Below, in pieces: positions 25,718 through 43,459 of a stretch of 64,000 nt of DNA; the stretch's first letter is position 1; every line of letters starts with the position of its first letter. Both the position numbers and the translations under genes were made by a program. This DNA is from Bdellovibrio bacteriovorus W. GTDB taxonomy: Bacteria; Bdellovibrionota; Bdellovibrionia; Bdellovibrionales; Bdellovibrionaceae. The DNA is taken from assembly GCA_000525675.1 (NCBI GenBank), contig CP002190.1, positions 2,418,001 through 2,482,000 of the forward strand, in the 5' to 3' direction. Below the pieces are notes generated by a model. That model did no database searches. It was not told the DNA's origin and was given only the letters and a program-made list of their open reading frames with translations.

Positions 25718-27499
25718 ATGTCGACAAAAGCAACCACTTTGGGCGACTGTATCGCTAACTTTCCAAAGAGAGATTCTCAACAAGCAGCGATCAAGTTTAA
25801 AGATAAAAAAAAATGGATCTCTAAGTCTTGGCAAGAATATTACAAAGATATCGAGTCCATTGGCTTAGCCCTAAAGAAATTAGGCATTCAAAAGGGAGAC
25901 CGTGTCGCTATCATGGCTAACACTCGCTACGAGTGGAGTGTTTTTGATTTGGCCATCATGGGCATTCATGCGGTCACTGTACCTATCTATCAAAACAATC
26001 GCGCCGAAGAAGTCGAATATATTCTAAATAATAGCGAAGCTAAGTTCTTAATCTGTGAAACCAAAGGAACACTTCGATCTTTCTTAGCCATCAAAGATAA
26101 ATGCCCCTCTATAGAGCAAGTCATCGTTATGGATAATAAGTCCCATCATGAAGGCGTTTTAGCTTGGTCTGATCTTTTAGAGCTTGGAAAGATTAACGCT
26201 GAAAATACCGGACTTTTTAAATCGCTCTGTTCAAGCCTCTCCCCTGAAGATATGGCGACTATTTTATATACTTCTGGAACCACCGGACTTCCGAAAGGTG
26301 TCGTTCTTACTCACCTTCAGGCCTTCAGCGAAGTCTCCGAAGCCTTTCCTTTCTGTGGTGCTACCACAAAAGATGTTTCTTTGAGCTTCCTCCCCTATGC
26401 CCATATCCTTGGAAGAATCGAACACTGGGGACATACCTTTATTGGTTTCACTCTTTGTTATGCAGAGAACATCGACCGCGTTCGTCAGAATCTTGTAGAG
26501 ATTCATCCAACTTTTCTTGTTTCAGTGCCTAGAATTTTTGAAAAAGTCTATGCGGCTATTATCACTCAAGTGCAGACAAAACCTTTGAAGTTAAAACTAT
26601 TTAACTGGGCCATTGGCGTTGGTAAGAAAGTCAGTGATTACAAAATTCGCGGTGAAGTTCTTCCTCTTGATCTTTTAGCTCAATACGAACTTGCAAAAAA
26701 ACTTGTTCTTAATAAGGTGACTGAGGCCTTTGGTGGTAAGCTGCGCTTTGCCATCAGTGGCGGCGCGCCTATATCTCAAGAGATTGCTGCCTTCTTTCAC
26801 GCTGCAGGAGTTTTAATCCTAGAAGGTTACGGCCTCACAGAGACCACAGCTGCCATCACCGTGAACACTCCCTACAACTATCGCTTCGGAAGTGTGGGGC
26901 GTCCAATCGGAGAAGTGCAAATTAAAATCGCCGACGATGGAGAGATTCTCGTTAAGAGCGATAAAGTAATGAAAGAGTACTATAAGAATCCGGAAGCCAC
27001 AAAAGAAGCCTTCACCGATGGCTGGTTTCATACCGGAGATATTGGTGAACTCTTAGATAATGGAGATCTTAAGATCACGGATCGTAAAAAGGATCTCATC
27101 AAGACCGCTGGCGGAAAATATGTCGCTCCTCAAAGACTTGAAGGATTTTTAAAACTGTCACCGGTTATTGGTCATGCTTTGATTCACGGCGATCAGCAAA
27201 AGTATGTGGTTGCTCTTCTTTCTCTAGATCGCCCGACGGTCATGACTTTAGCAAAAGAGCAAAACGTCGAATTTCAGAACTGGGAAGACCTCAGTCAAAA
27301 TCATTTCACCCAAGAACTGGCTCGCCAAGCGGTGGCGGAGGCCAATTCACATTTAGCAAGCTTTGAAACGATAAAGCGCTTTAAGATCGTGCCTGAAGAA
27401 TTCACCGTAGAAGGCGGCGAACTCACACCTTCGATGAAGGTAAAAAGAAAAGTTCTCGATAAACGCTATTCCCAAACCATACACGATCTCTATCAATGA
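25718..27499 (+). CDS. long-chain acyl-CoA synthetase (FadD-like AMP-forming ligase)
   Basis: A 593-residue adenylate-forming enzyme. Motifs: the P-loop YTSGTTGLPKGV, GGAPISQEIAAFFHAAG, EGYGLTETTAAIT, the Asp of WFHTGDIG, DRKKDLIKTAGGKYVAPQRLE and the C-terminal catalytic Lys region (PSMKVKRKVLDKRY). This is the FadD15/AMP-binding long-chain type, which activates fatty acids to acyl-CoA through an acyl-AMP. AAGGAG precedes the ATG. Its stop overlaps the next start by four bases (ATGA), making it the first of a tightly coupled five-gene set. It probably supplies activated acyl chains to the enzymes in this cluster or the one converging on it. Confidence 0.92.
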   Translation: MSTKATTLGDCIANFPKRDSQQAAIKFKDKKKWISKSWQEYYKDIESIGLALKKLGIQKGDRVAIMANTRYEWSVFDLAIMGIHAVTVPIYQNNRAEEVEYILNNSEAKFLICETKGTLRSFLAIKDKCPSIEQVIVMDNKSHHEGVLAWSDLLELGKINAENTGLFKSLCSSLSPEDMATILYTSGTTGLPKGVVLTHLQAFSEVSEAFPFCGATTKDVSLSFLPYAHILGRIEHWGHTFIGFTLCYAENIDRVRQNLVEIHPTFLVSVPRIFEKVYAAIITQVQTKPLKLKLFNWAIGVGKKVSDYKIRGEVLPLDLLAQYELAKKLVLNKVTEAFGGKLRFAISGGAPISQEIAAFFHAAGVLILEGYGLTETTAAITVNTPYNYRFGSVGRPIGEVQIKIADDGEILVKSDKVMKEYYKNPEATKEAFTDGWFHTGDIGELLDNGDLKITDRKKDLIKTAGGKYVAPQRLEGFLKLSPVIGHALIHGDQQKYVVALLSLDRPTVMTLAKEQNVEFQNWEDLSQNHFTQELARQAVAEANSHLASFETIKRFKIVPEEFTVEGGELTPSMKVKRKVLDKRYSQTIHDLYQ

Positions 27500-28902
27500 A
27501 CTGCGTAGAACTATTCACCCAACAGGCAAAAGCATTTCCAGAGAAAACAGCCATCTGGATTTCTCCGCAGGAGCAAGTCTCTTTCCGCGAGCTTGTTGAA
27601 CTATCTGGTTCTGCACAAAACTACTTCAAATCTCACGGGCTTCAAGAAAAAGATTGTGTTCTTCTATTAGAGCCTCTTTCTCCGCATCTCTACGCACTCA
27701 TCTGCGGAGCTCTAGCCTCCGGCATTTCTATCATTCTTGTAGAACCATGGATGCCACTTAAAGATATCAATCATGTTATCAACATCGTTCAGCCAAAAAT
27801 GTTTATCACTCGTTGGTGGGGCTATATCTGGGGCGCTCGCCTAAACTCTGTACGCGACATTCCGCACTGGACCTCTGCAGAAAAGGTGCTCTCTAAAAGA
27901 AATAAACTCGAAGTTTTAAATGTCGATCCGGCCACCGCTGGTATTATCACGTTTACGACGGGAACAACTGGCAAACCCAAAGGCGTTCTACGCTCTCAAG
28001 GCTACCTCGTTGAGCAATTTAAAGAATTAGATCTTGCCTTAGGACTTTCTAAAAATACCCATCCAGATCTCACCGTGTTTGCAAACTTTGCTTTGGCGAA
28101 TCTAGCTGCTGGAAAAAGCTCTGTGATAGTTCACCCAGCATGGAAACCTAAGCAATTAGAAATGATTTCCTCTCTTCCTCAGAATCTCCAACCCCGCACG
28201 AGCACAATGGGACCTGGGTTTCTAAAAAAACTCTTAGGCATTCCTGATTTTTTAAAGAACTTGGAAGACCTTCATGTCGGTGGAGCACTAACGGATACAT
28301 GGATATTTGAAGAGACCTTTCGCAAATGGCCAGAAGCCCATGTTCTCCATCTTTACGGAAGCAGCGAAGCCGAACCAGTGGCTCTTTGTGACGCCCGTCA
28401 GGCCGTTCAATTCAGCAAAGAGAAAGATCTTTTTCAAACTCTTTTCGTTGGAAAGCCGTCTCCAAACATTCACCTGCAAAATCTTGAAAACAATCTCTGG
28501 GTCTCTGGAAATCATGTCTGCCCTGAGTATATTGGCGCAGCCGAAGACAATAAAAAACATAAACGCCGTGATCAGCAAGGCATCCTTTGGCACGACATGG
28601 GAGACAGAATTACTGAAGATGAAAGTGGTCTTTGGTATGCGGGAAGAAGTTCTCAAGATCTCGAGGACTTTCAGAAAGAACAGGCGATCTATAGCCAAAT
28701 TCAATCTAGCGCTAACTTTCTATTTAGAAACCCTCAGCAAGAATTATGTATCATCGGAAAGAACCTTCAAGGACATCGCTCCTTATTGATGAAAAATTAT
28801 GAAATCAGCCACGTTTATGATTTCCCAATTCTTCGCGATCGTCGCCATCGAGCTAGAATTGATCGCGCCGGCACTTTAAAAAAATCAGGAGTTCTTAAAT
28901 GA
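27496..28902 (+). CDS. AMP-forming ligase, OleC-like, atypical
   Basis: A 468-residue adenylate-forming enzyme, shorter than FadD by about 120 residues. It has TFTTGTTGKPKGV and LYGSSEAEP where the usual motif would be YG-x-TE, then HDMGDR. The C-terminal part is reduced: I do not see the usual GDxxxxDxxGxxxxxGRxxD run in full, although GLWYAGRSSQDLEDFQ is probably its remnant, and the last Lys is in AGTLKKSGVLK. Similar proteins act as olefin beta-lactone synthetases (OleC) or free-standing acid ligases. The carboxylic acid it activates is unknown. Start and stop both overlap neighbours by four bases. Confidence 0.78.
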   Translation: MNCVELFTQQAKAFPEKTAIWISPQEQVSFRELVELSGSAQNYFKSHGLQEKDCVLLLEPLSPHLYALICGALASGISIILVEPWMPLKDINHVINIVQPKMFITRWWGYIWGARLNSVRDIPHWTSAEKVLSKRNKLEVLNVDPATAGIITFTTGTTGKPKGVLRSQGYLVEQFKELDLALGLSKNTHPDLTVFANFALANLAAGKSSVIVHPAWKPKQLEMISSLPQNLQPRTSTMGPGFLKKLLGIPDFLKNLEDLHVGGALTDTWIFEETFRKWPEAHVLHLYGSSEAEPVALCDARQAVQFSKEKDLFQTLFVGKPSPNIHLQNLENNLWVSGNHVCPEYIGAAEDNKKHKRRDQQGILWHDMGDRITEDESGLWYAGRSSQDLEDFQKEQAIYSQIQSSANFLFRNPQQELCIIGKNLQGHRSLLMKNYEISHVYDFPILRDRRHRARIDRAGTLKKSGVLK

Positions 28903-29915
28903 TTGTCGTGAACTCTCTTTCTAAGGCCACTGACGCTAAATCCTTTATTACTGCTTTTGCCGAAGTTCCCTATTTAGTTCGAGCCAAGAGCGAGCATAAA
29001 TTCTTGCAACCCAAAGAATGGACCGAAGCTTTACTGATGGCTCCCCTTCCGATTCCTAAAGAGTTCTTTATTGCGACTCAAGACGGTGCTTCCTTCGGCC
29101 GGGCTTCTGTGAATCTTTCTTTAGCTTATAAAGACTATGCTTATTTCGGCTTCTTTGAAGCAAAAAGTTTTGATGTTGCTCAAGCACTCATCGCAGAAGT
29201 CAGGAAATGGGCTCTAGAGAAAAATATTAAAAAGATCATTGGACCGATTAACTTTAACACCTGGCTCCCTTACCGCTTTCGTGTGAATTGGGATGACTCA
29301 AACTACTTTGCATGGGAACCACAAAATCCCCAAACCTATCCTGAGTATTTAGAAAAATTAGGCTTTAAAACACAAGCCTCTTACACGAGTACAGGTTATG
29401 AGCCGCTTGTGGATCTCATGAACGCCACAGAAAAAAACTTTACCGCAACTTCACAGCAAGGTTATTCCTATCCAGAGTTTGATGATTCCTCTTTACTCAA
29501 AAACATAGATCAGATTCACGCCGTTACTATGCGTGCGTTTGCTCAGAATCATCTTTTTGAACCACTCCCTTTAGACTACTTCAAGCAATTCTATGTTCCA
29601 TTAGCAAAGAAGGAAGATCATTCTCACTTTCGTTGGATGCTATCTCCACAAAATGAAATTGTAGGTTATCTTTTTAATTTCGTGGATCAAGGGCACTTCA
29701 TTATGAAGTCCTTTGCTGTTGTGCCTGAAGAAACGGGAAAAGGGCTTTCCAATGCGTGCTTGCATGCCTGCTTAAAGAAAGCCCACGCCCTAGGAATTGA
29801 TAAAACTGTTTCAGCCCTCGTCATTGAAGGAAATCGCAGTGAATCCTACGGAAAGAAGCAAAAACAGATCTGGCAACATCGCTATTGTCTTTATGAGTTG
29901 GAGGTATCCCCTTGA
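28899..29915 (+). CDS. GNAT-fold protein, YghO-like
   Basis: A 338-residue protein that resembles the YghO-like GNAT superfamily members: FGRASVNLS, YFGFFEAKSFDVAQALI, then KKIIGPINFNTWLPYRFR, a motif typical of this poorly studied group. The C-terminal half looks like a second GNAT domain (VVPEETGKGLSNACLHACLKKA, the acyl-CoA-binding loop form). It has no signal peptide. Known GNAT proteins transfer an acyl group to an amine; the donor and acceptor here are unknown. Its coupling with two acyl ligases suggests an N- or O-acyl transfer using the activated chains they produce. Confidence 0.72.
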   Translation: MIVVNSLSKATDAKSFITAFAEVPYLVRAKSEHKFLQPKEWTEALLMAPLPIPKEFFIATQDGASFGRASVNLSLAYKDYAYFGFFEAKSFDVAQALIAEVRKWALEKNIKKIIGPINFNTWLPYRFRVNWDDSNYFAWEPQNPQTYPEYLEKLGFKTQASYTSTGYEPLVDLMNATEKNFTATSQQGYSYPEFDDSSLLKNIDQIHAVTMRAFAQNHLFEPLPLDYFKQFYVPLAKKEDHSHFRWMLSPQNEIVGYLFNFVDQGHFIMKSFAVVPEETGKGLSNACLHACLKKAHALGIDKTVSALVIEGNRSESYGKKQKQIWQHRYCLYELEVSP

Positions 29916-30775
29916 ATTTTAAACCTTGGCTGACATTTACTAAAGAACGCCTGCCTCTACTCTCTTACGCCTTGCTCGTCGGAGGCTTTACCCTGACTGG
30001 CAAAGCATTAACTCAAGGAAATTGGGGCTGGGAGTTCTGGCTTTCCTTTATTGGTTTGATGATTTTCTTTATTGAGCTTCGCTTAATGGATGAATTCAAA
30101 GATTATAAAAAAGATCTCATTGCCCACCCGCAGAGACCACTTCCTCGCGGCCTCATCAAGCCCGAGAGCTTACAAAAGGTTATTAGTTGGGGACTAATGT
30201 TCATGCTCATTTACGGAGTTAGCCTCTGCCTGCTCTCCAATGAGGCGGGTATTTCCTATATCCTGATTCTATTTTACCTCTACCTTATGTATAAAGAATT
30301 CTTTCTCGGAGAAGGATTTGCAAACTCTCCTCTCCTCTATGCTGCTAGCCACCAAATCATCATTGTCGGCCTGACAGTCTTTGCAACAGCCTGCTTTGAT
30401 GCCATGGCCGTTTATGACCCCGTAGTTTACTTAGCGGGCTTCGTTGTCTTAGGATGTTTCTTTACCTATGAAGTTTGTCGAAAGATGGACCCTCAAGCAC
30501 ATCCTCTTCTAAAAACCTATCTGCAAGTTTACGGCACTAAGAAAGTCGGACTTTTGCTTTGCGTGCTCCAACTTATTAGTTGGACTGCCGCCTTCTTACT
30601 TCATCAGCAGATCTCACTTTTTGGTTTAATCGCTGGAGGTGCTTTACTCCTTCTGAGCTGGATTCTTTTTGTTATGGACGAAAAGAAATTTAAGGCCGTA
30701 GAAGGTGCTGGAACCTTCACCCTACTTATCAGTCTTTATATAATTCCTCTACAGTTCTGGATTACAGGAGGTTAG
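29912..30775 (+). CDS. UbiA-family membrane transferase
   Basis: A 287-residue polytopic membrane protein with about eight membrane segments. The Asp-rich motif RLMDEFKDYKKD, followed by HPQRPLPRG, matches the UbiA family first motif (N/D-D/E-x-x-D-x-x-x-D), which binds the Mg-diphosphate of a prenyl donor. The second motif is degenerate: YEVCRKMDPQ replaces the usual D-x-x-D. The start is TTG, supported by GGAGG seven bases upstream, and it overlaps the preceding stop (TTGA). UbiA proteins move a prenyl or other isoprenoid-like group to an aromatic ring or glycerol; the acceptor here is not known. Confidence 0.82.
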   Translation: MNFKPWLTFTKERLPLLSYALLVGGFTLTGKALTQGNWGWEFWLSFIGLMIFFIELRLMDEFKDYKKDLIAHPQRPLPRGLIKPESLQKVISWGLMFMLIYGVSLCLLSNEAGISYILILFYLYLMYKEFFLGEGFANSPLLYAASHQIIIVGLTVFATACFDAMAVYDPVVYLAGFVVLGCFFTYEVCRKMDPQAHPLLKTYLQVYGTKKVGLLLCVLQLISWTAAFLLHQQISLFGLIAGGALLLLSWILFVMDEKKFKAVEGAGTFTLLISLYIIPLQFWITGG

Positions 30776-30776
30776 C

Positions 30777-33512
30777 ATGAAACGGATTTTATTTTCGTCA
30801 GACGACGACATTCTATTTTTAGAAGGTGGCGGAGGTAAGGCTCGCAACCTTGCAAAGCTCACAATGCTCAATGTTCCAGTTCCAACTTGGTTCTGCATCA
30901 CACAGAGTGCTTTTGATGAGTTTCTAAATCAAAATCGCATTCAGGTTCAACAATACGTGGACCCTGAAAACCTCAAAGTCACAGAACAAAAGATCGCTGA
31001 TATCTTTTTAGCTAATCCACTTCCCTCTGGATTGATCAATGAGATTCAGGAATCACTCAAAAACTTAAACATTGCCTCTGATTTCGTGGCCGTTCGTTCA
31101 AGTGGCTTGGATGAAGATTCTGCGGATAATAGTTTTGCCGGTCAGTTCTCGTCATTTCTTTTTCAGAAAGACTTTGCTGATATCGAAAAATCTTTGAAGC
31201 TATGTTGGGCTTCAGCCTATTCAGAAAGAGCTCTTTCCTATCGACAGACAAAGAATCTGCCTCTGAATGATATTAAAATGGGTGTTGTTATTCAAAAGAT
31301 GGTCAATGCTGAAATTGCCGGAGTGGCTTTTTCTCGTAACCCTATGAAAGTAATGGATCGCGATCAACTGATCGTAAGCTCCGTTTGGGGCTTGGGAGAA
31401 GGTCTTGTTAGCGGAGAACTAGATGCCGACCATTATGAAGTTCATCGCGTAAAGAAAACAATTAAACCCACCATCGTAGAAAAGAGCGAAGCTTTTTATC
31501 AAAAAGAAGGTGGTGGAATTCAAAAGTTTCCTCTGAGTGAAGATAAAACCAAGATCTCAAGTCTTACAGACGAACAAGTCAAAGAGGTCGCGGAGCTTGT
31601 GCTTCATCTAGAAAAATCTTTAAACTCACCCCAAGACTGCGAATGGGTTTATGAAAACGGAAGTCTTTTCTGTGTACAAACTCGCCCCATCACTTCCGTT
31701 CCAAGAGATGATTTCTTTGATGCAGAATCGAATGGCAACGAGGCTACGTTGTGGGACAACTCAAACATTGTAGAAAGCTACTCTGGAGTCACCTCCCCTT
31801 TGACCTTTAGCTTTGCCAGCCAAGCGTATCGCCAAGTCTATATACAGTTTTGTGAGGTCATTGGTGTTCCTAAATCACTGATTCTCGCAAATGAGAAGAT
31901 GTATAGAAATATGTTGGGAAGTATCCGCGGCCATATCTATTACAATCTCATCAACTGGTACAAGCTGATCCTCATGCTTCCGGGCTCGAGCAATAACAAA
32001 GCCTTTATGGAAACAATGATGGGAGTCAAACAAGGGCTCAAGCCTGAGTTTGCGCACCTATTTGATTTTATGAAGACACCCATCAAGTATTCTCTGCCGC
32101 ATAAGATCGGCCTCTTAGGTGTGACTCTGTGGCGCTTTATCCGTGTCGATTCAATCATCAACGGGTTTCAAAAACATTTCACTGAAACCTATGAAGATGC
32201 TCGTAAAAAAGATTTTAAAAAAATGTCGCTCAATGAATTGCGCGCATTCTATGAATATTTAGATGGAGAAGTTCTTAGAAACTGGAAAGCTCCTATCATC
32301 AACGACTATCTCTGCATGGTGTTTTTCGGACTTTTGAAAAAACTCACGGAGAAATGGGTTTCGTCAGGCAATGATGGCGCCTCTCTACAGAACGATCTGC
32401 TCTGTGGACAAGGAGATCTTGAATCCACCGAACCCACTAAGACTCTAATGAGAATTGCGGCAGCGGTGGATCAAGGCGAGCCCCAACAGCGCACTTGGCT
32501 TTTAGAGACTCCGGCATCGCAAGCTTGGGAAGAACTTAAAGCAGGGAGATTTCGCAATCTCAAAGCCCGCATGGATGATTTCTTAGATGCCTATGGCTTT
32601 CGTTGCATCAATGAACTCAAACTGGAGGCGAGCGATCTGCATGACGACCCAAGCTTTGTCATGGGAGCCGTTCAATCCTATGTCCGCATGAAGTCCTATG
32701 ACATTGCTGAAATGGAAAAACGTGAAGCTGAGATTCGTGATGCTGCAGAAAAGAAGGTTCGCGAAAACCTAAAAGGCGTTAAACTGTGGATCTATTTTAA
32801 AATCCTAGGACAAGCCCGTAAAGCCGTGCGCAATCGTGAGAACCTGCGCTTTGCAAGAACTAAGATATTTGGAATTGCTCGCCATCTCTTTAGAGGGATC
32901 GGCCATCAGTTAACACGCCAAGGTGTTATACAAGATGAAAGAGATATCTTTTATTTGACGGTCGAAGAGATCATGTCCTTCATCGAAGGACGCTCTGTCA
33001 CACTTAATATTTCTGCGCTGATTGAACTTAGAAAATCTGAATACGCAGACTTCGAGAAGTCTTTGCCACCACCAGATCGTTTTATGACGTTTGGTGCTGC
33101 AGGAATTGCTTGTAAGTATCCCCAAGTACTTACGGAGTCAGATCTCTTGGCAGCAGATATGCCCAAGTCTACCGATCCAAATACGCTCTATGGTGTTCCT
33201 TGCTGCCCTGGAGTCGTTGAGGGTGTCGTTAGAGTCGTTCATAATATGCAGGATGCTGAAGGCCTTAACGGGGAAATTCTTGTTACGAGTAAAACAGACC
33301 CTGGCTGGGTTCCACTGTATCCTTCTTGCTCAGGATTATTGATTGAGCGCGGAAGCTTACTGTCTCACTCTGCCGTGGTTGCTCGTGAACTTGGATTGCC
33401 AACGATAGTTGGAATCTCTGGAGGGCTTATGCAAAAGCTAAAAACAGGGCAACGAGTTCGCATTGATGCGGCTAAAGGGGAAGTTCGCATTCTACAAGAC
33501 GCGGCTGAATAA
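30777..33512 (+). CDS. PEP-synthase-like phosphotransferase, rifampin phosphotransferase architecture
   Basis: A 911-residue protein. Residues 1-315 are an ATP-grasp domain of the pyruvate phosphate dikinase type (GGGGKARNLAKL, AVRSSGLDEDSADNSFAGQF, ending in VQTRPITS). The C-terminus is the swivelling phosphohistidine domain: GVPCCPGVVEG, DPGWVPLYP and LLSHSAVVARE with the probable phospho-His at 864. The 450 residues in between are helical, and the PEP/pyruvate TIM barrel is absent. This is the layout of rifampin phosphotransferases: ATP phosphorylates the His and the phosphate goes to an alcohol acceptor bound by the middle domain. Here the acceptor is probably a lipid or UbiA product, since the start is one base after the UbiA stop. 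Confidence 0.85.
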   Translation: MKRILFSSDDDILFLEGGGGKARNLAKLTMLNVPVPTWFCITQSAFDEFLNQNRIQVQQYVDPENLKVTEQKIADIFLANPLPSGLINEIQESLKNLNIASDFVAVRSSGLDEDSADNSFAGQFSSFLFQKDFADIEKSLKLCWASAYSERALSYRQTKNLPLNDIKMGVVIQKMVNAEIAGVAFSRNPMKVMDRDQLIVSSVWGLGEGLVSGELDADHYEVHRVKKTIKPTIVEKSEAFYQKEGGGIQKFPLSEDKTKISSLTDEQVKEVAELVLHLEKSLNSPQDCEWVYENGSLFCVQTRPITSVPRDDFFDAESNGNEATLWDNSNIVESYSGVTSPLTFSFASQAYRQVYIQFCEVIGVPKSLILANEKMYRNMLGSIRGHIYYNLINWYKLILMLPGSSNNKAFMETMMGVKQGLKPEFAHLFDFMKTPIKYSLPHKIGLLGVTLWRFIRVDSIINGFQKHFTETYEDARKKDFKKMSLNELRAFYEYLDGEVLRNWKAPIINDYLCMVFFGLLKKLTEKWVSSGNDGASLQNDLLCGQGDLESTEPTKTLMRIAAAVDQGEPQQRTWLLETPASQAWEELKAGRFRNLKARMDDFLDAYGFRCINELKLEASDLHDDPSFVMGAVQSYVRMKSYDIAEMEKREAEIRDAAEKKVRENLKGVKLWIYFKILGQARKAVRNRENLRFARTKIFGIARHLFRGIGHQLTRQGVIQDERDIFYLTVEEIMSFIEGRSVTLNISALIELRKSEYADFEKSLPPPDRFMTFGAAGIACKYPQVLTESDLLAADMPKSTDPNTLYGVPCCPGVVEGVVRVVHNMQDAEGLNGEILVTSKTDPGWVPLYPSCSGLLIERGSLLSHSAVVARELGLPTIVGISGGLMQKLKTGQRVRIDAAKGEVRILQDAAE

Positions 33513-34173: not shown

Positions 34174-35265
34174 CTAGTCCTTCTGGTAAATATGGAACTG
34201 ATAGACCCCTGTCCCATCTTGCATCTGCGCTTCCTGACTCTTATCTATTAAATAGCTCCAGTTTTTTGAATTCATCTCTTTAGCTGCTCTCATAAATGAG
34301 CGAATCACGATACGCGCGCCTGCGGGAGTGTCCGTGTGAAGCCTCTGCAAAAGATCATTGGCATCAGAGTCTTCCAGATATGAGATTGTATCGGATAATG
34401 AAATAAACGAGTACGCGTGCTTAGGCAACAATTCTACTAAATTGCCCAAAACATAGTTTACCTTCGTCTGCGACTTCTTAACTGCATTAAATACTTTGAG
34501 ATGAGCTTCTAACGGAAGTCCTTCTTCGTACTGAATCTTTCCTAGAAACAAGGTTTGCATAAAATAGTTCTGACGTACCAATTGGGTCATGAAAACTCTT
34601 TTAAACTCTTCCATAATAAACTGTGAAGAGCTGCGTTCCTCGGTCTTTCCATCACGACCAGAGAAATGCCCCTTGTACAAATACTTGTTAAAAACATATT
34701 CACTGGCAGCAACGCGGATAAAACTATTCCAGCGCAAATGAGGCCACGCCTTTTCATAAAGTTCTTTCTGCTCTTCTAAAGAGTTTGCAGCAAAAACTTT
34801 CGAGAAATCACAGCGAAGCACATCTCTAAAAAGCATTCCAAGCTTCTGAAAATGACTTTCCCACTTACCCAAACGAATAAAGCCTGTCCCCTCCCACCCG
34901 TTGACTCTTTCTTGCCAATAGGTCCGAGCCTTGTCAGACAGTTCAAGCTTTGCAAAAAGATCGGCACGACGAGGAGTGGGCTTTACACCTTGGACCGCTC
35001 CGCGATAGCCCATAAAAAATAAATATTCTTCATAGCTCAGAGCCTTCATGGCCTGTAAACGCAACTCTACTAAAAAGAGCTGACTTTCGGACATATCAAC
35101 AACATCAATCTCTTTGGGATTTTTAGCAATCAGCGGAAGACAGCGAGCGCCAGATCCGGCAATAGAAAAAACTCGTTCCGCATTTTCACGCAACAAACCA
35201 TACTCAATCTCGGTATCTTCATTGGCGAGTGTGTAATTCAGATCTGAAAAGTATTCTTTTGCCAT
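34174..35265 (-). CDS. BtaA-like (DUF3419) aminocarboxypropyl transferase
   Basis: A 363-residue protein of the DUF3419/BtaA family: a SAM-binding start (VFSIAGSGARCLPLI), the acidic loop (IDVVDMSESQLFLVELR) and a C-terminal SDTISYLED part. BtaA transfers the 3-amino-3-carboxypropyl group of S-adenosylmethionine to diacylglycerol to begin betaine lipid (DGTS) synthesis, with BtaB then methylating it. No BtaB-type methyltransferase is encoded in this window, so the final lipid may keep a free amine or be methylated elsewhere, or the acceptor may be another lipid. It is the last gene of the six-gene minus-strand operon, 11 bases after the barrel gene. Confidence 0.85.
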   Translation of the reverse strand: MAKEYFSDLNYTLANEDTEIEYGLLRENAERVFSIAGSGARCLPLIAKNPKEIDVVDMSESQLFLVELRLQAMKALSYEEYLFFMGYRGAVQGVKPTPRRADLFAKLELSDKARTYWQERVNGWEGTGFIRLGKWESHFQKLGMLFRDVLRCDFSKVFAANSLEEQKELYEKAWPHLRWNSFIRVAASEYVFNKYLYKGHFSGRDGKTEERSSSQFIMEEFKRVFMTQLVRQNYFMQTLFLGKIQYEEGLPLEAHLKVFNAVKKSQTKVNYVLGNLVELLPKHAYSFISLSDTISYLEDSDANDLLQRLHTDTPAGARIVIRSFMRAAKEMNSKNWSYLIDKSQEAQMQDGTGVYQFHIYQKD

Positions 35266-35276
35266 TTCATTTCCTT

Positions 35277-36332
35277 TTAAAAATCAAATATATGATTCAG
35301 TTCTGCACGCAGACCTATCACCGTTTCTTGAGTCATCTCTTGGTAAACGGCATACAGCCCTTGTTCTCCGCCATAGTTCTGAGCAAATGCTGATAGATTC
35401 ACGAGTGTGTGAACCTGATATCCATAAGAAAGAGCTAAAAATTGATCTTTCAAAGTGGTGTTCGCATAGGCTTGCAAAGTCAGCTCATGCTTATCTGGTC
35501 GCCATTGTAAAGATCCATACAAAAGAGTCTGATCTTGCTCGAAGATTCTGGATTTATCTTGAAGCTGGGTTCCTTGTAAAACAAGAATCCAATCACCCAA
35601 AAATAAATCAGCTCCCAAAGTTAAAAAATTACCAAGAGACTTTGAATCCTTTTGCTGCATGCCGAACTCTAACTTCGGAACCCAATCATCGAAGGCATAA
35701 TTAAGGCCTACACCCAAGACCTCAGAGTCCGGGACTTTAGCGGCGATGATACTGTAATCCATGGACCAGGCTTGGCTCTTAAGGCGCAATCCATAACTTA
35801 ACTCATCCCTTGGCTCTTGTAAGGTCTCTGGCAATGGGTAAGGAAGTTGGGTCTCTGCATACTCTCCAATAAACGCAAGATCCAAAGAAAAAAGAGATCC
35901 CGCATAACTAAGACTCACTCCCGATGAATGATTGAGTTGATCTTTAAAGGGATCAAAATACAGACGATTGAACTTTCTCCCTGACCACACATCCAAAGAA
36001 GGCAAAACCCAGCTTTCACTCCAACGCAAAGCCTGCTTGCCTGCTCGGAGGTAAAAGGCATCGAAATTAAATTCCAAGTAGGCCTCTTGCAGATAGCCTC
36101 TCATCGGGGATCGCCTTAGAATTCTTTGATCCTCATTGGTCTCAAAGTCACCAAAGCCTTCGATAAAAAGTTTAAAGGGGCCCTTTTCTTCAGCGAGGGT
36201 TGCCGACAAGACAAGGCGATTAGCAAGTTCTTCGTTTTGACTTTGAATATAGTCATAACGTGGATTCACCGTGACTTCAGCCAGAGCTATCGCCGGAAAA
36301 AATAGAAGAACGAGCCAAAGCCGTGTGAACAT
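35277..36332 (-). CDS. outer-membrane barrel porin, DUF1302-like
   Basis: A 351-residue protein with a signal peptide ending at about PAIALA (residue 18). The mature part is rich in alternating strands and includes YLRAGKQALRWSESWVLPSL followed by a conserved DVWSGRKFNRLYFDP loop, which resembles the inner loop of DUF1302/alginate-export-like porins. It ends in LRAELNHIFDF with the terminal Phe of a barrel. It begins three bases after the LolA-like gene. Genes for LolA-like and DUF1302-like proteins are often found together with lipid exporters, so a role in moving the product of this operon across or into the outer membrane is plausible. Confidence 0.78.
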   Translation of the reverse strand: MFTRLWLVLLFFPAIALAEVTVNPRYDYIQSQNEELANRLVLSATLAEEKGPFKLFIEGFGDFETNEDQRILRRSPMRGYLQEAYLEFNFDAFYLRAGKQALRWSESWVLPSLDVWSGRKFNRLYFDPFKDQLNHSSGVSLSYAGSLFSLDLAFIGEYAETQLPYPLPETLQEPRDELSYGLRLKSQAWSMDYSIIAAKVPDSEVLGVGLNYAFDDWVPKLEFGMQQKDSKSLGNFLTLGADLFLGDWILVLQGTQLQDKSRIFEQDQTLLYGSLQWRPDKHELTLQAYANTTLKDQFLALSYGYQVHTLVNLSAFAQNYGGEQGLYAVYQEMTQETVIGLRAELNHIFDF

Positions 36333-36335
36333 GGT

Positions 36336-37031
36336 TTACTTCAAGCTTTCCATATTACGAACTGTGAAGAATGAGTCTGAAAAATTTTTCGGAGTCATTT
36401 CTAAGATACGGATATAACTTGTCTGCTTGCCCGTATCTTCAATCCGAATCGTAGAAGGTCTTTCAGCACCCGCGATTTTCTTATAGTCTTCAAAATAGGC
36501 TTTCTTTAAAACCGTTTTACCATTCAGTGCCAAATACTCGGCACGCACGGGGCGACTATTAGATTTCTTTAGCCACAAACGAATCGCAGCATAAGTTAAG
36601 TTCTTTTTATTACCCTCTAAGAAAAGTTGAATTTCATCACCCTTTTCTGCTTCTTTTTTGGCTTCATAGTCGCCATACCAGCGGGTACGAGAGATATCGC
36701 CGTTTGCAACTTGTCCTGATAGTTTTTGCGCCAACGATAGGCGCATAGATCGCTTTAAATTCGGAACATAGGCATTAAAATCTCGATCGAGCATTAACAT
36801 ATTACGACCGCGATCGCGCGCGGGCTCTTTGGTGACGATCAGAGTTTTTTCCTGACCTTTAAGAAAGACCTGAAAAACGGAAGAGCTTTCGCCCCCTTCC
36901 ACTTTAATTTTCATTTCATAAGACTCTGAAGGATTGCGAATAGCATCGGCTTTCTTGAGCAATTCATTATAAGGATTTGCAAATACTTGAGAACTCAAAA
37001 CGAAAATCAAAGCAGCCATTGTCTTTATCAT
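36336..37031 (-). CDS. outer-membrane lipoprotein-sorting protein (LolA-like, COG2834)
   Basis: A 231-residue periplasmic protein with a signal peptide (MIKTMAALIFVLSSQVFA). The mature part has the half-barrel LolA/LolB-like fold pattern of COG2834: YEMKIKVEGGESSSVFQVFLKG, then MLMLDRDFNAYVPNLKRSMRLS and the DTGKQTSYIRILEMT end. These proteins carry a hydrophobic ligand in the cavity, either a lipoprotein acyl chain or a free lipid. The ATG at 37031 overlaps the stop of the acyl reductase gene (ATGA), and this start gives a proper signal peptide; a TTG three codons earlier is a weaker option. Translational coupling suggests the cargo is the lipid made by its neighbours. Confidence 0.82.
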   Translation of the reverse strand: MIKTMAALIFVLSSQVFANPYNELLKKADAIRNPSESYEMKIKVEGGESSSVFQVFLKGQEKTLIVTKEPARDRGRNMLMLDRDFNAYVPNLKRSMRLSLAQKLSGQVANGDISRTRWYGDYEAKKEAEKGDEIQLFLEGNKKNLTYAAIRLWLKKSNSRPVRAEYLALNGKTVLKKAYFEDYKKIAGAERPSTIRIEDTGKQTSYIRILEMTPKNFSDSFFTVRNMESLK

Positions 37032-39166
37032 GGTGTCCAACTCTTTCTTCGAGAGAGCGCCAGTTGTCGTGTTAACTCAATCTCTCGGTCTGTGATTATA
37101 CCTGCATGACCTTGAATTGCAGCTAATTTCACGCCATGTTTTGTGGCCATTTTATAAATTTGTTTTACCTTATGCCACTCGATATCACGCCCTAAAGTGA
37201 AAGCTTCATAGCGTTTTTCCATCGCCAACAAAGCTGTCTCTGCCAGACAAGCATAAACAGAATTTCCTGGCAGTCCTAAATCGCAATCCATCTTCACAGG
37301 TCCTGGCAAAATCACTTCGCCAGATTCAATGATCAAAACGTCAGGACGTTTTTTTGCGTCTTCAATATCAAAATCCAGAGGACGAGAGCAGTCACAAACG
37401 ACGGCCCCAGGCTTTAAGCGCATCACATCGACCACCTTATGATCAAATGCCGAAGTCGCCGTTACTAGGACATCTGCTTGAGAAGCCAACTCATTGGCGT
37501 CTGTGACAATCATAACTTCGCAACGAGGAGAGATCGCTTCGAGCTGCTGCTTTAGTTCTCTTAAGCGCTCTAAGCGTGGCGCCACAAGAACTAGTCTTTT
37601 AAAAACCAGGGCTAAAAGTTTTGCGGATACCTGTCCAATGGACCCCGTGGCGCCAATCACCATTGCGGTGCCCTCAACAAGTCCCGTTTCTTTGTCGTGA
37701 TTTAAAATACGCATCTTCTGCACGACATCGTTCAAAGCCCACAGTGTGGCAGACGCGCTCAGGCTGTTTCCGGTCGTCACAGGGATTGGTGAATTCGCAT
37801 TGATGGTAATTCCCTGATCGCCGACGATCTTAGTGTAAGCCCCAAGACCAATGATTTTTGCACCGCGATTGGCAGCATCATGACAGAGGTTCTCAATTTT
37901 TCGATAGATTATCTCTGGATCAGAGTTCTTTAAAACCTTCGGAGTTGCTGGTAGAGCATAAAGAATCCCGTTCACCTTTTCACCGGTGGATTCGCTGATC
38001 ACATGGTTTACGTGTCCGTACACAAACGCTGGTGTCTTCCCCATCAATTTATCGAAGCCATCGTTCCATGAAGTGGGCATATGCTTAATCATTCCTAAGC
38101 CCGGAACTCTTTCAAAGTCTTTATGGGAGAGCGCATGTATCACAAACGCAAAGTCTGGAGCTTTTTCTCCGAGAACTTTGTTGCGAACTTTATTCACCTG
38201 AGAAGAAATCTTATGTTGCGTTGAGTTTCTACGAGTCACCGTATACTTACGAACCGTATGACGCTTTTCACTTTCTCCAAGTATAAGATCTTCCCACTCT
38301 TCCAATGAAAGAGGAGCGGTCTTTCCAAAAGCCAATCTTAGGGTCGCATCTAATACCGAATAGTTCATATTCGGGTGCAGTTTATATTTTTCTGGAAAGA
38401 GATTAATTATCGAACGTGGTTGGTATTTCTTAGCGACTTCTTCCATCACAGGGTGTGAAGACCAGATCACTAGGTCCTTCCCTCTTACAAACTCGATGGC
38501 AGAATCAAAAAGCAATAAAAATGGCAGATCGCAAAAAACATACTGAATATTTTCAACTTGGCTTGCAAAAGAACTCCGACTCATCTTTTGCAATTTAGTT
38601 TCAGCCAGAGGGGTGTTGCTCTTTAAGTCTTTCACGTTCGCAAAATTGAGAGCCAACTTAGAGATAGTCATCAAACCACGGAATGGTTGAATCAAGATAG
38701 GCAGCCCCAAAAGAGAATACGCGTCCCCGATATGCACCGCTTTTTGATATCGATGGCGGATATATTCTTCAAGCTCGGTTGAAAAAATCGCCGCAGGAAA
38801 GAACACGCCCTGTTCTGGCTGAATCTCCTTCTCTTCAATCATTTCGATTAAAGAGTTCACATTGCTAATCTCTCGCAAACCCGTTCCATCACAAAGAGGA
38901 ACGGTCGTCGGAGTCGCCATAATTTCTAAATACTGACGATGCACGTAGCTTTTCTGATCAAGTTTAATAACCGGTGGTAAGCTAGTCATCGCAAAAGCGT
39001 CGACTTGATCACGCAGGGACTCAATCAAACGCACTACCGACTCTACGGAAAAGTTCGCACTGAATCTCTGAACTTGAAAAATTTTATTTTCAAATTCAAA
39101 TTCATAAGCTGTGTCCCAGTGAGATCTGCCGAAACTAATCTCTGCGATTCGATATGAATGCTTCAT
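37028..39166 (-). CDS. acyl-ACP reductase-like protein with an unknown N-terminal domain
   Basis: A 712-residue two-part protein. Residues 339-685 closely follow cyanobacterial long-chain acyl-ACP reductase (AAR): FAFVIHALSHKDF at the start, TTGNS (464-468), the Rossmann motif GATGSIG (505-511) and NSVYACLAETALL, where Cys640 aligns with the AAR cysteine that holds the acyl thioester. It ends with the AAR-like KMATKHGV. AAR reduces acyl-ACP to a fatty aldehyde. Residues 1-335 match no family I know; they are mixed alpha/beta with DLPFLLLFDSAIEF near residue 215. Free AAR is about 340 residues, so this is a fusion. It overlaps the SDR gene by 32 bases. Confidence 0.8.
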   Translation of the reverse strand: MKHSYRIAEISFGRSHWDTAYEFEFENKIFQVQRFSANFSVESVVRLIESLRDQVDAFAMTSLPPVIKLDQKSYVHRQYLEIMATPTTVPLCDGTGLREISNVNSLIEMIEEKEIQPEQGVFFPAAIFSTELEEYIRHRYQKAVHIGDAYSLLGLPILIQPFRGLMTISKLALNFANVKDLKSNTPLAETKLQKMSRSSFASQVENIQYVFCDLPFLLLFDSAIEFVRGKDLVIWSSHPVMEEVAKKYQPRSIINLFPEKYKLHPNMNYSVLDATLRLAFGKTAPLSLEEWEDLILGESEKRHTVRKYTVTRRNSTQHKISSQVNKVRNKVLGEKAPDFAFVIHALSHKDFERVPGLGMIKHMPTSWNDGFDKLMGKTPAFVYGHVNHVISESTGEKVNGILYALPATPKVLKNSDPEIIYRKIENLCHDAANRGAKIIGLGAYTKIVGDQGITINANSPIPVTTGNSLSASATLWALNDVVQKMRILNHDKETGLVEGTAMVIGATGSIGQVSAKLLALVFKRLVLVAPRLERLRELKQQLEAISPRCEVMIVTDANELASQADVLVTATSAFDHKVVDVMRLKPGAVVCDCSRPLDFDIEDAKKRPDVLIIESGEVILPGPVKMDCDLGLPGNSVYACLAETALLAMEKRYEAFTLGRDIEWHKVKQIYKMATKHGVKLAAIQGHAGIITDREIELTRQLALSRRKSWTP

Positions 39167-40154
39167 AACCTCTCCACAGAGTTTCTTGATAGGTTGAGAA
39201 TTCAGGACACCAGTCTTTTCCTAGCACCTTCTCCGTTTCCGAAGAGTCATAAATTGGAAAGTTTAAAAGATAATATAATTGCTCTTTAGGGAGACCCGCA
39301 AGGCTATGGGTCATACTGATCAATAATGATTCACCTAAAACATCGACCAAACGAATCCCTTTATGGGATATATTTAAACCTCGTAAAATCCACTCGTAGA
39401 GTTCAGATACACTGGCCCCTTCATTTGGGGTTAGGTGAAAACTCTGATAACTTTCGCCATTGTCTTGAGTGCTCCAAAGGCAAAACTGCGCAATCGCAGA
39501 AGCTGCCACATCCACCGGCACTAGAGGTAATCGCCCCTGCTCTTTTCCTGGAAGAGGTAAAACAGTCGGGAACTTTTCTAAAACTGTTTTCATTTTTTTG
39601 AAGGCGTCTAAAGCCGCATAGGGACCATCAAGACGGTCAACTTCACCACGCAAAGTGTCTCCAACCAGAACTCCTAAGCGAAGATTGATTTTTTTAAAAT
39701 CTGCACTCCAGTTTTTAAGAAGCTCCTCGCCGTTAGCTTTAGAAAGTGAATAGGCGTCAGGAAAGGCTTTTGTCAGTTGCAAATCGTAAGGCTTTACTAA
39801 GCGCAAAGGAGAATTGATTGCGGCAGCGACGGTGCTGGTATTCAGAAAGGTTTTAACTTTAATATGTGTTGCTATTTTTAGAGCTGTTCCGAGAGCGTTG
39901 ACGTTATGTTGATTACAATCCACTTCGCTGGCTTCTAAATCATAAAGCCCTGCCATGTGCAGGAAGAGATCGTATTTTCGTTCTTTCAACTTTTCTAAAT
40001 CAAGCCCACCATCCCAAAGAGTGAGATCCCCTTGCACCTCAGATCCTGGCTTGCGGGAAATAACATCCACCTCAAAGTGCTCTTGCAAAAGAGGCACAGT
40101 GAACTTTCCGACAAATCCGGTTCCTCCAGAAACTAGGATCTTTCTTTTGGGCAT
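39135..40154 (-). CDS. extended SDR, NAD-dependent epimerase/reductase
   Basis: A 339-residue extended short-chain dehydrogenase: SGGTGFVGKF at the N-terminus, STVAAAI, and YSLSK (Tyr-x-x-x-Lys) near residue 135. It resembles the sterol dehydrogenase/OleD and thioester-reductase-like groups, which act on lipidic ketones, aldehydes or thioesters. GAGGAG precedes the ATG. It sits between a lipid kinase gene and the acyl reductase-like gene, so a natural reading is that it reduces the fatty aldehyde or a derived keto group. The substrate is inferred from context only. Confidence 0.82.
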   Translation of the reverse strand: MPKRKILVSGGTGFVGKFTVPLLQEHFEVDVISRKPGSEVQGDLTLWDGGLDLEKLKERKYDLFLHMAGLYDLEASEVDCNQHNVNALGTALKIATHIKVKTFLNTSTVAAAINSPLRLVKPYDLQLTKAFPDAYSLSKANGEELLKNWSADFKKINLRLGVLVGDTLRGEVDRLDGPYAALDAFKKMKTVLEKFPTVLPLPGKEQGRLPLVPVDVAASAIAQFCLWSTQDNGESYQSFHLTPNEGASVSELYEWILRGLNISHKGIRLVDVLGESLLISMTHSLAGLPKEQLYYLLNFPIYDSSETEKVLGKDWCPEFSTYQETLWRGYEAFISNRRD

Positions 40155-40164
40155 TTTGTCTCCT

Positions 40165-41160
40165 CTACTGCCTTACCATTAAAGGCAAAGCTCGATGAAT
40201 ACAACGCACAGAGATCTCTTGCACATCACGATGAAGAATCTCTCCGTCTCCAAAAAAAGTTAAAAGACGTTCAGGATTTTGAGTTTTAAGTTTAAATTCT
40301 TTGAGTTCAAAAGTTTTAATCGGTGCAAATTTATCAACAGTTCCACGGCGAATATGCATTGCTGCGAGAGTGTGTGCCGGAACAGAGTTCGTTTCAGATA
40401 AAAGAAGATTCACAGTCCCGTCCGTATTGGAAGTGTAAGGGGCAGGAGAAAAATTGGATCCGATAGATGTTTGGTTATTCACTAAGACGATCGGAGATTC
40501 CGTAAGAAATGACTCTTGCTCCGGAAGGCTGACTTCAAGACCCCAGCCCTCATTGTTCCAAGTTCGAATGGCTTCTGCTGTCATCAAAGAGTAAACACTA
40601 GGTCCCATTTTCTTCACGGCATGATAGCTCTTCTCTGCCAAGAATCGAAAAGCGCTGCGATCGTTTTTTTCAGCCAACGAGCGCAAGTGGGAGCGAAACT
40701 TATTAGCAAGCTCTGCTGCTACGGCCGGGAGTCCAAGCCCCCCGTTAGTCAGCATATACTTAGTCATGCCTTCCGCAGCGACTTCAATAACATCAATATG
40801 ACGAACATATCCTTCGAAAATACTGCGAATAGCGATATCGATACGGTTAGAGATTCCAATTTCTTGAGCGAGGTCATTGGCAGTGCCCGAACGAACAACC
40901 GCAATGGGAGGCATTTTTTCAGAAAGACGCAAAGCCATCAGATGCTGAAGTGTCGCGTTGATCGTGCCATCACCACCACAAATGATAAAACCATCTGTGC
41001 TTTGAGCAATCTCTTCTGCCAAAAAGTCAGCGAGTTCGGGATGCGTTTTAGGACGCGCAATTCTCAGGTCACAACGAAATAGAGATTCCCTAATTTTACC
41101 TTCGATAAAATCAGCATTCACGGAACCTGCTCTTTCATTGATTAAAACCGATACTCTCAT
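40165..41160 (-). CDS. diacylglycerol / sphingoid base kinase family protein
   Basis: A 331-residue lipid kinase of the DAGK/YegS/LCB type: VLINERAGSV at the N-terminus, ICGGDGTINATL (GGDGT nucleotide motif) and VVRSGTANDLAQEIGI. The C-terminal domain is a beta-sandwich with the SNTDGTVNLLL motif. It phosphorylates a lipid hydroxyl (diacylglycerol, a sphingoid base or similar). It is the first gene of the six-gene operon that continues with the SDR, acyl reductase, LolA-like, barrel and BtaA-like genes. With the phosphotransferase at 30777 there are therefore two unrelated enzymes in this region able to phosphorylate an alcohol. Confidence 0.88.
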   Translation of the reverse strand: MRVSVLINERAGSVNADFIEGKIRESLFRCDLRIARPKTHPELADFLAEEIAQSTDGFIICGGDGTINATLQHLMALRLSEKMPPIAVVRSGTANDLAQEIGISNRIDIAIRSIFEGYVRHIDVIEVAAEGMTKYMLTNGGLGLPAVAAELANKFRSHLRSLAEKNDRSAFRFLAEKSYHAVKKMGPSVYSLMTAEAIRTWNNEGWGLEVSLPEQESFLTESPIVLVNNQTSIGSNFSPAPYTSNTDGTVNLLLSETNSVPAHTLAAMHIRRGTVDKFAPIKTFELKEFKLKTQNPERLLTFFGDGEILHRDVQEISVRCIHRALPLMVRQ

Positions 41161-41543: not shown

Positions 41544-41575
41544 AAAAAAGCCGACTTCTCAGTCGGCTTTTTTTT
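41544..41575. terminator. bidirectional intrinsic terminator
   Basis: AAAAAAGCCGACT and AGTCGGCTTTTTTTT form a long A/T-flanked stem with a short loop between the small membrane protein and the ABC permease, whose stop codon (41574-41576) touches it. It serves both strands. Confidence 0.93.
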
Positions 41576-42782
41576 ATGGTGTTCTTAATAAATCAGGAAT
41601 CGTTCTCTTTAAAAGCTTCCTCACCGGATAAATACTTGCAAGCACCGTCGCAATCATTGGCAATAATAACGCCTGCACATAATGAGCAGGAAGAATATCT
41701 AAAAACACAATGAACTGCCTTGTTATCCCTGGTGCTGGAGGCATGGTGATCCCCGTTCTTAAAAGTGTACTATTAATAAGAACAGCAAGAATGATTCCCA
41801 GAGCTCCGCCCAGAAGCCCTAAAAAGGAATTCTCTAAAATAAATATTTTAAAGAGTCTTTTTCGAGTTTCTCCATTCGCCCTCAGCGCGCCCACTTCACC
41901 CGCTCGCTCTAAAAGACCCACAGAGATTACATTGAAGATTCCCATTGCTACGATGACCAAAATGATCGAGCGGATAAATGCGAATTGCGCATCCAAAAAA
42001 TCCACTGAGTTTTGGTAATAGTTTTTATCCAAAATTTCAAAGGGAATAGGATCAAGTTCAGAGTTTTGAGAGCGGATGTCTTTTTCTGCCTGAGCCCAAT
42101 GCTCAACACCTGTTGTTGCTAAGGCAAACATCTCAACACGATTTGTATCTAAGAGCTGCTGTGCTTGCGATAACTCTATTCGAAAAAAACTATCGTCGAG
42201 TGACTGCTTACCCGTAAAAAAGATTCCCGCCACACGTAAATCGACACCGTTAAGCTGCCCATGAACTGTCTGCGCAAGAATGGTAATCGTATCCCCCACC
42301 TTAGCATCAATACTTTCTGCAAGGCCTTTTCCTAAAATAATTTGGTCGGACTCTTGAATATCTGTTCCAGAAATAAAATTCATTTCCGTAAAGAACTTAT
42401 TTTCTCTTTGCGGAATAATCCCTTCACCGCGTCCACCGAGAGTGATTCCGCCTTTAACTACAAAGGCATAGAATGAAACCCTTGGAAAAACATCCTTTAC
42501 CTGAGATGAACTGCGAATTTGCTTTTCAACTTCATCCGGCTTTTCAAACCACTGCTTCCATGGTTCTTCGTGCACAACTCCAAAATAATCTTTAGGATAA
42601 ACTTGACCATGACCGTAATAACCGTGAATCACATTTTCACGATACTGGTTCATAACGCCTGAATTAAAACCTTGGTAGATTAAAAGCCCCGCCGATCCCA
42701 GAGCCACCGTGCAAAGACTTGCCAATGTACGACGAGGGTTACGGAATAAATTTCTCCAAGAAATAAGAATAAACTCTTTCAT
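41574..42782 (-). CDS. ABC transporter permease, LolC/MacB (FtsX-like) type
   Basis: A 402-residue permease with one N-terminal membrane helix (LFRNPRRTLASLCTVALGSAGLLIY), a large periplasmic domain of about 230 residues with the MacB-type VFPRVSFYAFV and GKGLAESIDAKVGDTI parts, then three C-terminal helices with the FtsX motif (VISVGLLERAGEVGALRANGETR would be the coupling segment; shown here in part). This family does not move cargo through a pore but pulls lipids, lipoproteins or proteins from the inner membrane by mechanotransmission. It follows the ATPase by five bases. Its cargo could be a lipoprotein (as LolCDE) or a lipid from the nearby operon. Confidence 0.85.
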   Translation of the reverse strand: MKEFILISWRNLFRNPRRTLASLCTVALGSAGLLIYQGFNSGVMNQYRENVIHGYYGHGQVYPKDYFGVVHEEPWKQWFEKPDEVEKQIRSSSQVKDVFPRVSFYAFVVKGGITLGGRGEGIIPQRENKFFTEMNFISGTDIQESDQIILGKGLAESIDAKVGDTITILAQTVHGQLNGVDLRVAGIFFTGKQSLDDSFFRIELSQAQQLLDTNRVEMFALATTGVEHWAQAEKDIRSQNSELDPIPFEILDKNYYQNSVDFLDAQFAFIRSIILVIVAMGIFNVISVGLLERAGEVGALRANGETRKRLFKIFILENSFLGLLGGALGIILAVLINSTLLRTGITMPPAPGITRQFIVFLDILPAHYVQALLLPMIATVLASIYPVRKLLKRTIPDLLRTP

Positions 42783-42787
42783 AGGCT

Positions 42788-43459
42788 TTAATTCAACTCC
42801 CCATCTTTCATTGTTAAAACAGACTCTGCATAGCTCACTAAATGAGAATCATGGGTTGAAAAGATAAAACTCGTTTTCTCGTGCTTTTGCAGCTCTTTAA
42901 ATGCGGTGATAATTTTCTCAGCAGTGACCGAGTCCAGATTAGCTGTCGGTTCATCTGCTAAAACCACTTCAGGTTTTTTAGCAATAGCACGAGCTATCGC
43001 CACCCTTTGCCTTTGTCCTCCAGATAGCTGCAAAGGTTTCTTCAAGGCATGATCCGCAAGCCCCAAAAGATCCAAGGTCTCCATCGCAATCTTTTTACTC
43101 TCACTTGGAGAATGCCCCAAAGAAGGTAAGAAGTAGGACGTGTTCTCTAAAACTGTAAGTGTGGGAATCAAATAGAAGGACTGAAAGACAAAGCCGATTT
43201 TCTTTAAACGCAATTTTTCACGCTCAGACTCTGAAAGGTTCGTCATTTCTTGGTCTGCTAAAAACAGCTTCCCGCGGGAAGAATGATCCAACAGCCCTAA
43301 GAGATTTAAAAGAGTCGTTTTACCAGAGCCAGAGGGCCCAACAATACAAGTAAAACACCCCTTCGGGATTTCTAAAGAAATGGACTTTAAAACTGACTGA
43401 GTTTGCCCATTCCAAGCATAGTCATAGCCAAGGTTTTCAAGGCGATACAATGTACTCAT
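42788..43459 (-). CDS. ABC transporter ATPase, LolD/MacB type
   Basis: A 223-residue ATPase: Walker [12 protein letters not shown], the Q-loop [10 protein letters not shown], signature [14 protein letters not shown], Walker [13 protein letters not shown] and the H-loop STHD. The length and the PTANLD ending put it in the LolD/MacB/FtsE group, which powers FtsX-like permeases. It is followed by the permease, and preceded in the same direction by a barrel gene and an AMIN-like gene, giving a four-gene unit that spans inner membrane, periplasm and outer membrane. Confidence 0.93.

Follow-up and report, generated by a model that had tools for sequence, protein, structure and literature searches.

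A probable two-domain reductase of the AAR/PigE type with a probable degenerate AAR-fold twin, and its lipid-gene neighbourhood in Bdellovibrio

The minus-strand gene at 37028..39166 of the window (the whole stretch of 64,000 nucleotides analysed here) encodes a protein of 712 residues, hereafter AAR2, which family profiles, fold and cross-phylum conservation identify as a probable di-domain acyl-thioester reductase of the AAR/PigE type. We consider it likely that AAR2 is a fatty acyl-thioester reductase whose aldehyde product would be converted to an alcohol by a neighbouring SDR and then enter a membrane lipid, with the N-terminal half of the protein as a degenerate partner. Judged from sequence comparisons, this two-domain build is the norm for a large family spread over several phyla, and the catalytic domain itself belongs to a known superfamily. 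The open reading frame begins with an ATG at position 39166. Most genomes of the genus carry it with 66-78% identity, and over the phylum as a whole the identity is about 33-57%.

The C-terminal half and its closest relatives

The C-terminal domain of AAR2 (residues 334-712; 37028..38167, minus strand) adopts the AAR fold and is probably an acyl-thioester reductase that depends on a cysteine. In a structure model (mean pLDDT 83.5) this half matched AAR and the carmabin TAD with Z scores of 32-34 over 320-356 residues, the next unrelated chain scoring 13.3. The AAR structures gave Z 31.5-32.4 over 322-329 residues, and residues 338-698 could be superposed on AAR 6jzq with a Z of 32.4 and an rmsd of 2.9 over 329 residues, in agreement with the preliminary description, in which residues 339-685 had been likened to AAR. 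The carmabin TAD (9e4s, 9e4u, 9e50, 9e56) has the same fold (Z about 33) at about 18-20% identity, but there it is one domain within a large protein of a biosynthetic assembly line.

The motifs picked out earlier in this half are all in place: TTGNS at residues 464-468 (TTGNT in AAR), the nucleotide-binding GATGSIG at residues 505-511 (37634..37654, minus strand), and the catalytic-type Cys640 (codon at 37247..37249, minus strand). Among 108 aligned relatives, the GATG, the I and the final G of GATGSIG were invariant (108/108) and S nearly so (106/108), Cys640 was a cysteine in 108/108, and the YACLAET motif around it was almost invariant. HMMER aligned Cys640 with the cysteine of AAR 'MFACFAE', counted as AAR residue 294, which is also the residue changed in PDB entry 6jzz (the C294S mutant of AAR). 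This puts Cys640 where the acyl-enzyme was expected to form, at the catalytic position of AAR, and not away from the active site. AAR2 thus carries two features of the AAR/PigE-type superfamily COG5322, a catalytic cysteine at the position of AAR Cys294 and PigE Cys296, and an NAD(P)H motif of the GxTGxIG type.

We also weighed the reading that the AAR-like fold serves a different carbonyl substrate, as in dehydrogenases of the quinate/shikimate or amino-acid type, and that Cys640 is structural. A remote fold likeness of the C-terminal half to shikimate, malic and phenylalanine dehydrogenases (Z 12-13) speaks for this reading, but the far higher Z scores to AAR, the near invariance of Cys640 and YACLAET, and the lipid enzymes encoded next to the gene make it very improbable. 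Profile scores were similarly one-sided: shikimate dehydrogenase (23.7 bits) and glutamyl-tRNA reductase (20.9 bits), raised earlier as possible better matches, fell far below AAR (TIGR04058, 66.2 bits) and PigE (NF053554, 184.5 bits).

As these profile scores indicate, the nearest characterised relative of the C-terminal half is the reductase domain of PigE rather than cyanobacterial AAR, and a sequence search of the PDB likewise ranked PigE (4ppm) first and AAR second. Neither family's curated cut-off was reached (449.7 bits for TIGR04058; 850 bits for NF053554, where the match covers the C-domain only), and a Pfam scan of the reading frame detected no aminotransferase domain. The N-terminal thioester reductase domain of PigE (prodigiosin; COG5322) gives the highest score of any characterised relative across the entire C-domain and shares with it the catalytic cysteine and the nucleotide motif region; however, PigE is fused to an aminotransferase, whereas the Bdellovibrio reductase is fused to a degenerate AAR-like N-domain and lies among lipid genes. 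A 2021 study proposed that the AAR-like domain of PigE is a thioester reductase and gave experimental support for this, the lysate showing the reduction and the purified protein in vitro not (PMC8341465). KecF and further transaminase fusions have been described with similar C-terminal domains (PMC6498172, PMC10829540), and those of KecF/PpKTFusion (COG5322) are counted with PigE among the closest known systems. Cyanobacterial AAR (TIGR04058; 6jzq/6jzu/6jzy) shares the fold over ~330 residues (Z about 32), the catalytic cysteine and a GATGxIG motif, but is only about 22% identical, and the Bdellovibrio protein has an extra N-terminal domain and no aldehyde-deformylating oxygenase (ADO) partner. 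The proposal of a cyanobacterial-AAR-type enzyme is therefore sound as to fold and cysteine but has to be revised as to affiliation, given the profile scores and a di-domain clade of its own. The presence of such a domain outside cyanobacteria is real but unremarkable, AAR-type domains being known from PigE, KecF and related fusions.

The N-terminal half

The N-terminal domain (residues 1-333; 38168..39166, minus strand) is a probable duplicate of the AAR fold which seems to have degenerated into a catalytically dead twin of the C-terminal domain, as indicated by an AF2 model, fold matches, profile comparison and column conservation. The statement that this half matches no nameable family holds at the sequence level: Pfam gave no family match for the 71 members scanned, and a sequence-profile search of the PDB gave none either. 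The picture of an unknown partner fits less well at the level of structure, where the fold search puts AAR first and a duplicate becomes the likelier reading. The AF2 model, built from a 71-sequence alignment, has a pLDDT of 86.8 and a pTM of 0.84, and its best Foldseek match in the PDB was AAR (E 9e-4, probability 0.99). In the VIA structural alignment, AAR occupied ranks 1-4, and AAR and the carmabin TAD together ranks 1-8 (Z 10.8-9.3), followed by malic enzyme (Z 8.9) and periplasmic-binding-protein folds (8.5); the structural fit has an rmsd of 4.8 over 235 residues, and its Z is higher by only about 2 than that of unrelated alpha/beta proteins with two domains.

A profile-profile comparison of the N- and C-domains with hhalign gave a collinear alignment over the whole domain (18-296 with 4-338) and a score of 30.6. 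Among 75 controls, comprising 15 other families from the same loci, 59 block-permuted N profiles and one reversed N profile, the maxima were 22.3 for the other families (17.5 for the SDR) and 24.0 for the permuted or reversed profiles. The evidence for homology of the halves is nevertheless only moderate, because the absolute hhalign probability is low (12.6%). Three landmarks can be followed through the alignment: P-V-x-(D/T)-G-x-x-L of the N-domain pairs with P-V-T-T-G-N-S-L, the G-K-T-L-I-x-D strand with K-P-G-x-V-I-C-D, and (E/D)-A with E-T. Taking this last pair as the anchor places the equivalent of Cys640 at position 270, mostly occupied by Ser, Ala, Gly or Asn; no column of the N-domain has cysteine in more than 30% of the sequences, so a conserved catalytic cysteine is absent. 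The counterpart of GATGSIG is a variable stretch in which the Rossmann glycines have been lost. It is because both the cysteine and these glycines are missing that we describe the duplicate as degenerate.

The competing explanation is that the N-domain has nothing to do with the AAR fold and is an alpha/beta module of two domains with acyl-CoA or a carrier protein as its ligand. In its favour, sequence profiles yield no family for the domain, and its Z of 10.8 to AAR exceeds the values for malic enzyme and periplasmic-binding-protein folds only moderately. Since, however, all of the top eight structural matches are AAR or carmabin TAD, and the collinear N-C profile score lies above every one of the 75 controls, we regard an unrelated module as unlikely and homology of the N-domain to the C-domain as very likely.

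Stand-alone homologues of the N-domain, of about 312-318 residues, are encoded outside the cluster in some Bacteriovoracaceae genomes (L073:8980-9918; L075:9887-10843; L077:2995-3951; L078:3069-4025; L079:9592-10545). Proteins annotated as 'quinate 5-dehydrogenase' may also carry the motif of the N-domain.

Distribution of the two-domain family

A genome scan recovered at least 400 confirmed relatives of AAR2, and the loci of the best 80 of these were analysed. Among the matches listed, relatives occur in Bdellovibrionota, Chloroflexota (Herpetosiphon, Chloroflexaceae), Gordonia, Nocardioides, Rhodocyclales, Burkholderiales, Halomonas, Endozoicomonas and Acidobacteria, the di-domain clade among them covering five phyla (Bdellovibrionota, Chloroflexota, Actinomycetota, Acidobacteriota and Pseudomonadota). 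Every copy not cut by a contig end contained the N-domain (among the best 80 of at least 400), and the fusion to an unknown domain described at first is thus the general form of a multi-phylum family. Searching viral contigs with the reductase protein returned no relatives.

In a tree including PigE and AAR, the di-domain proteins formed a clade (support 99/95) separate from PigE (99/98), within which Bdellovibrionota made up a single subclade (100/99). The root of this tree is not fixed because the AAR reference branch is very long. On one acidobacterial contig the di-domain reductase is present twice, in divergent versions (L125:5730-7847; L125:8078-12208), next to genes for a WS/DGAT and an Fe-alcohol dehydrogenase.

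Gene neighbourhood and fate of the aldehyde

On the minus strand, AAR2 lies within a run of six genes consisting of a lipid kinase (DAGK_cat, Pfam 74 bits; 40165..41160), an SDR (NAD_binding_4; 39135..40154), the reductase, a LolA-like outer-membrane lipoprotein-sorting protein (PF17131, 112 bits; 36336..37040), a porin-like protein (weak Porin_4 match and synteny; 35277..36332) and a DUF3419 protein (PF11899, 204 bits; 34174..35265), which we take to be BtaA-like. The reductase gene shares 32 bp with the SDR gene upstream of it and 13 bp with the LolA-like gene that follows downstream. This same-strand arrangement suggests, as read from gene spacing, that the genes from the lipid kinase through DUF3419 form one transcript; in a scan for promoters and terminators the number of sites did not exceed the chance expectation. 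On the opposite strand (27496..33512, plus), synteny identifies a companion half of the cluster encoding an AMP-dependent ligase, a GNAT, a UbiA and a PEP-synthase-like protein (30777-33512, plus). An FtsX-type permease and an ABC ATPase (41574..43459, minus strand) lie beyond the lipid kinase and are present in 10/27 loci.

Among the 27 Bdellovibrionota loci counted, the SDR was immediately upstream of the reductase in all and the lipid kinase nearby in 26, while within 20 kb we found the PEP-synthase-like gene in 23, DUF3419 in 22, UbiA in 20, the AMP ligase in 18 and GNAT in 6; the LolA-like/porin pair accompanied only about 40%. The two-part cluster (27496-33512, plus, with 34174-41160, minus) recurs across Bdellovibrionota with variation in order and strand. 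Across 40 genomes, the reductase and DUF3419 occurred together in the same 17, one further genome having a weak partial match to DUF3419 only. This shared pattern is evidence of a module and not of a reaction order, because linked genes gained and lost together would look alike. Both genes are absent from some Bdellovibrio genomes. In the literature searched on Bdellovibrio with acyl-ACP reductase, fatty aldehyde or related subjects, no paper on this cluster was found.

By analogy with AAR, the acyl group of an acyl-CoA or acyl-ACP would be transferred to Cys640, and the acyl-enzyme would then be reduced by hydride from NAD(P)H with release of a fatty aldehyde. The N-terminal half could act as a fixed partner in this reaction, as a built-in pseudo-dimer or a docking or gating platform. 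From the neighbouring genes, the most likely fate of the aldehyde in Bdellovibrionota is reduction to an alcohol by the product of the overlapping SDR gene, whose function is predicted from its family; its position directly upstream of the reductase in all 27 loci favours the earlier suggestion that the aldehyde is passed to this SDR. AcrB-type PRK07201 has an N-terminal half similar to this SDR, and together the SDR and the reductase would be a two-protein counterpart of AcrB-type fatty-alcohol synthesis. AcrB, FarA and FcrA of wax-ester producers (PMC11948995) have a role like the one proposed here, the conversion of acyl-CoA to fatty alcohol; in contrast, the acyl-reducing domain of AAR2 has another evolutionary origin, and alcohol formation would need a second protein, either an SDR or an Fe-ADH. 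More tentatively, the alcohol or aldehyde might be built into a membrane or outer-membrane lipid by way of the lipid kinase and DUF3419, and the LolA-like/porin pair could perhaps export it.

The affinity to PigE raises the alternative of a PigE/KecF-like pathway: the aldehyde, made from a specialised acyl thioester, would go into a product resembling an alkaloid or pigment, and the PEP-synthase-like protein, which is distantly similar to PigC, would be the condensing ligase. This would accord with the C-domain being nearest to PigE by profile and with the match of the PEP-synthase-like neighbour to PigC/RedH profiles (359-375 bits). The same neighbour, however, scores far higher, and above the cut-off, with NF004881 'phosphoenolpyruvate synthase' (909 bits), neither the reductase nor the rest of the cluster includes an aminotransferase, the C-domain clade is distinct from PigE in the tree, and relatives adjoin alcohol dehydrogenase and wax-ester synthase genes. 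We therefore hold such a pathway to be improbable and retain the fatty acyl-thioester reductase as the preferred reading.

Three other fates of the aldehyde were considered and set aside. Alkane synthesis was ruled out: as had been noted for the window, there is no ADO, and PF11266 was absent from the whole genome, the Synechococcus elongatus positive control being found. As far as the searches reach, wax esters can be dismissed for Bdellovibrio, WS/DGAT being present in 0/24 Bdellovibrionota genomes and in 7/8 other genomes searched as a positive control. As for olefin synthesis of the OleABCD type, the AMP ligase resembles an olefin beta-lactone synthetase (60 bits), but the SDR scored only 14.8 bits against an OleD-type reductase and no thiolase was seen in the cluster.

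Outside Bdellovibrionota, the neighbours suggest that the reductase product is likewise an aldehyde destined for alcohol. Among the matches listed, an Fe-alcohol dehydrogenase adjoins the reductase gene in about 15 loci, nearly all of them betaproteobacterial (Sulfuritalea, L141, is one example), and about 9 loci have a WS/DGAT in the flanking sequence retrieved. The gene directly upstream in Gordonia and Nitriliruptoraceae encodes an SDR that matches AcrB-type PRK07201 over its N-terminal half (255-258 bits), and the actinobacterial loci with an adjacent SDR of this type are L130, L131, L135 and L150. Of the seven reductase-carrying genomes in which WS/DGAT was found, two had a full-length AcrB, none had a gene of the HMG-CoA-reductase type (the FcrA superfamily), and five had neither. 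The Bdellovibrio genome itself encodes, outside the window, an HMG-CoA reductase family protein (C1:1189078-1190169, 326 bits), which may be an enzyme of the mevalonate pathway or a fatty acyl-CoA reductase of the FcrA type. A survey from 2025 assigned FarA to 1%, AcrB to 31% and FcrA to 26% of WS/DGAT bacteria, shares which imply that many of these bacteria may lack a known fatty acyl-CoA reductase (PMC11948995).

The two-domain form with its degenerate twin, the breadth of phyla and the link to wax-ester loci appear to be undescribed in the literature we could search, which left out most subscription sources. It is conceivable, though we put it forward as speculation, that the di-domain proteins are an unnamed class of fatty-acyl reductases that arose when the AAR fold was duplicated in tandem and one half became inactive, that with an Fe-ADH or SDR they supply fatty alcohol in many wax-ester formers devoid of FarA, AcrB and FcrA, and that in Bdellovibrionota, with the BtaA-like DUF3419 protein, they serve an undescribed alkyl (ether-type) lipid of the outer membrane. 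If the preferred reading is correct, AAR2 would be an acyl reductase that carries a dead duplicate of itself, and its locus directs attention to a so far undescribed, accessory lipid module of predatory bacteria, in a genus open to laboratory culture and mutation.
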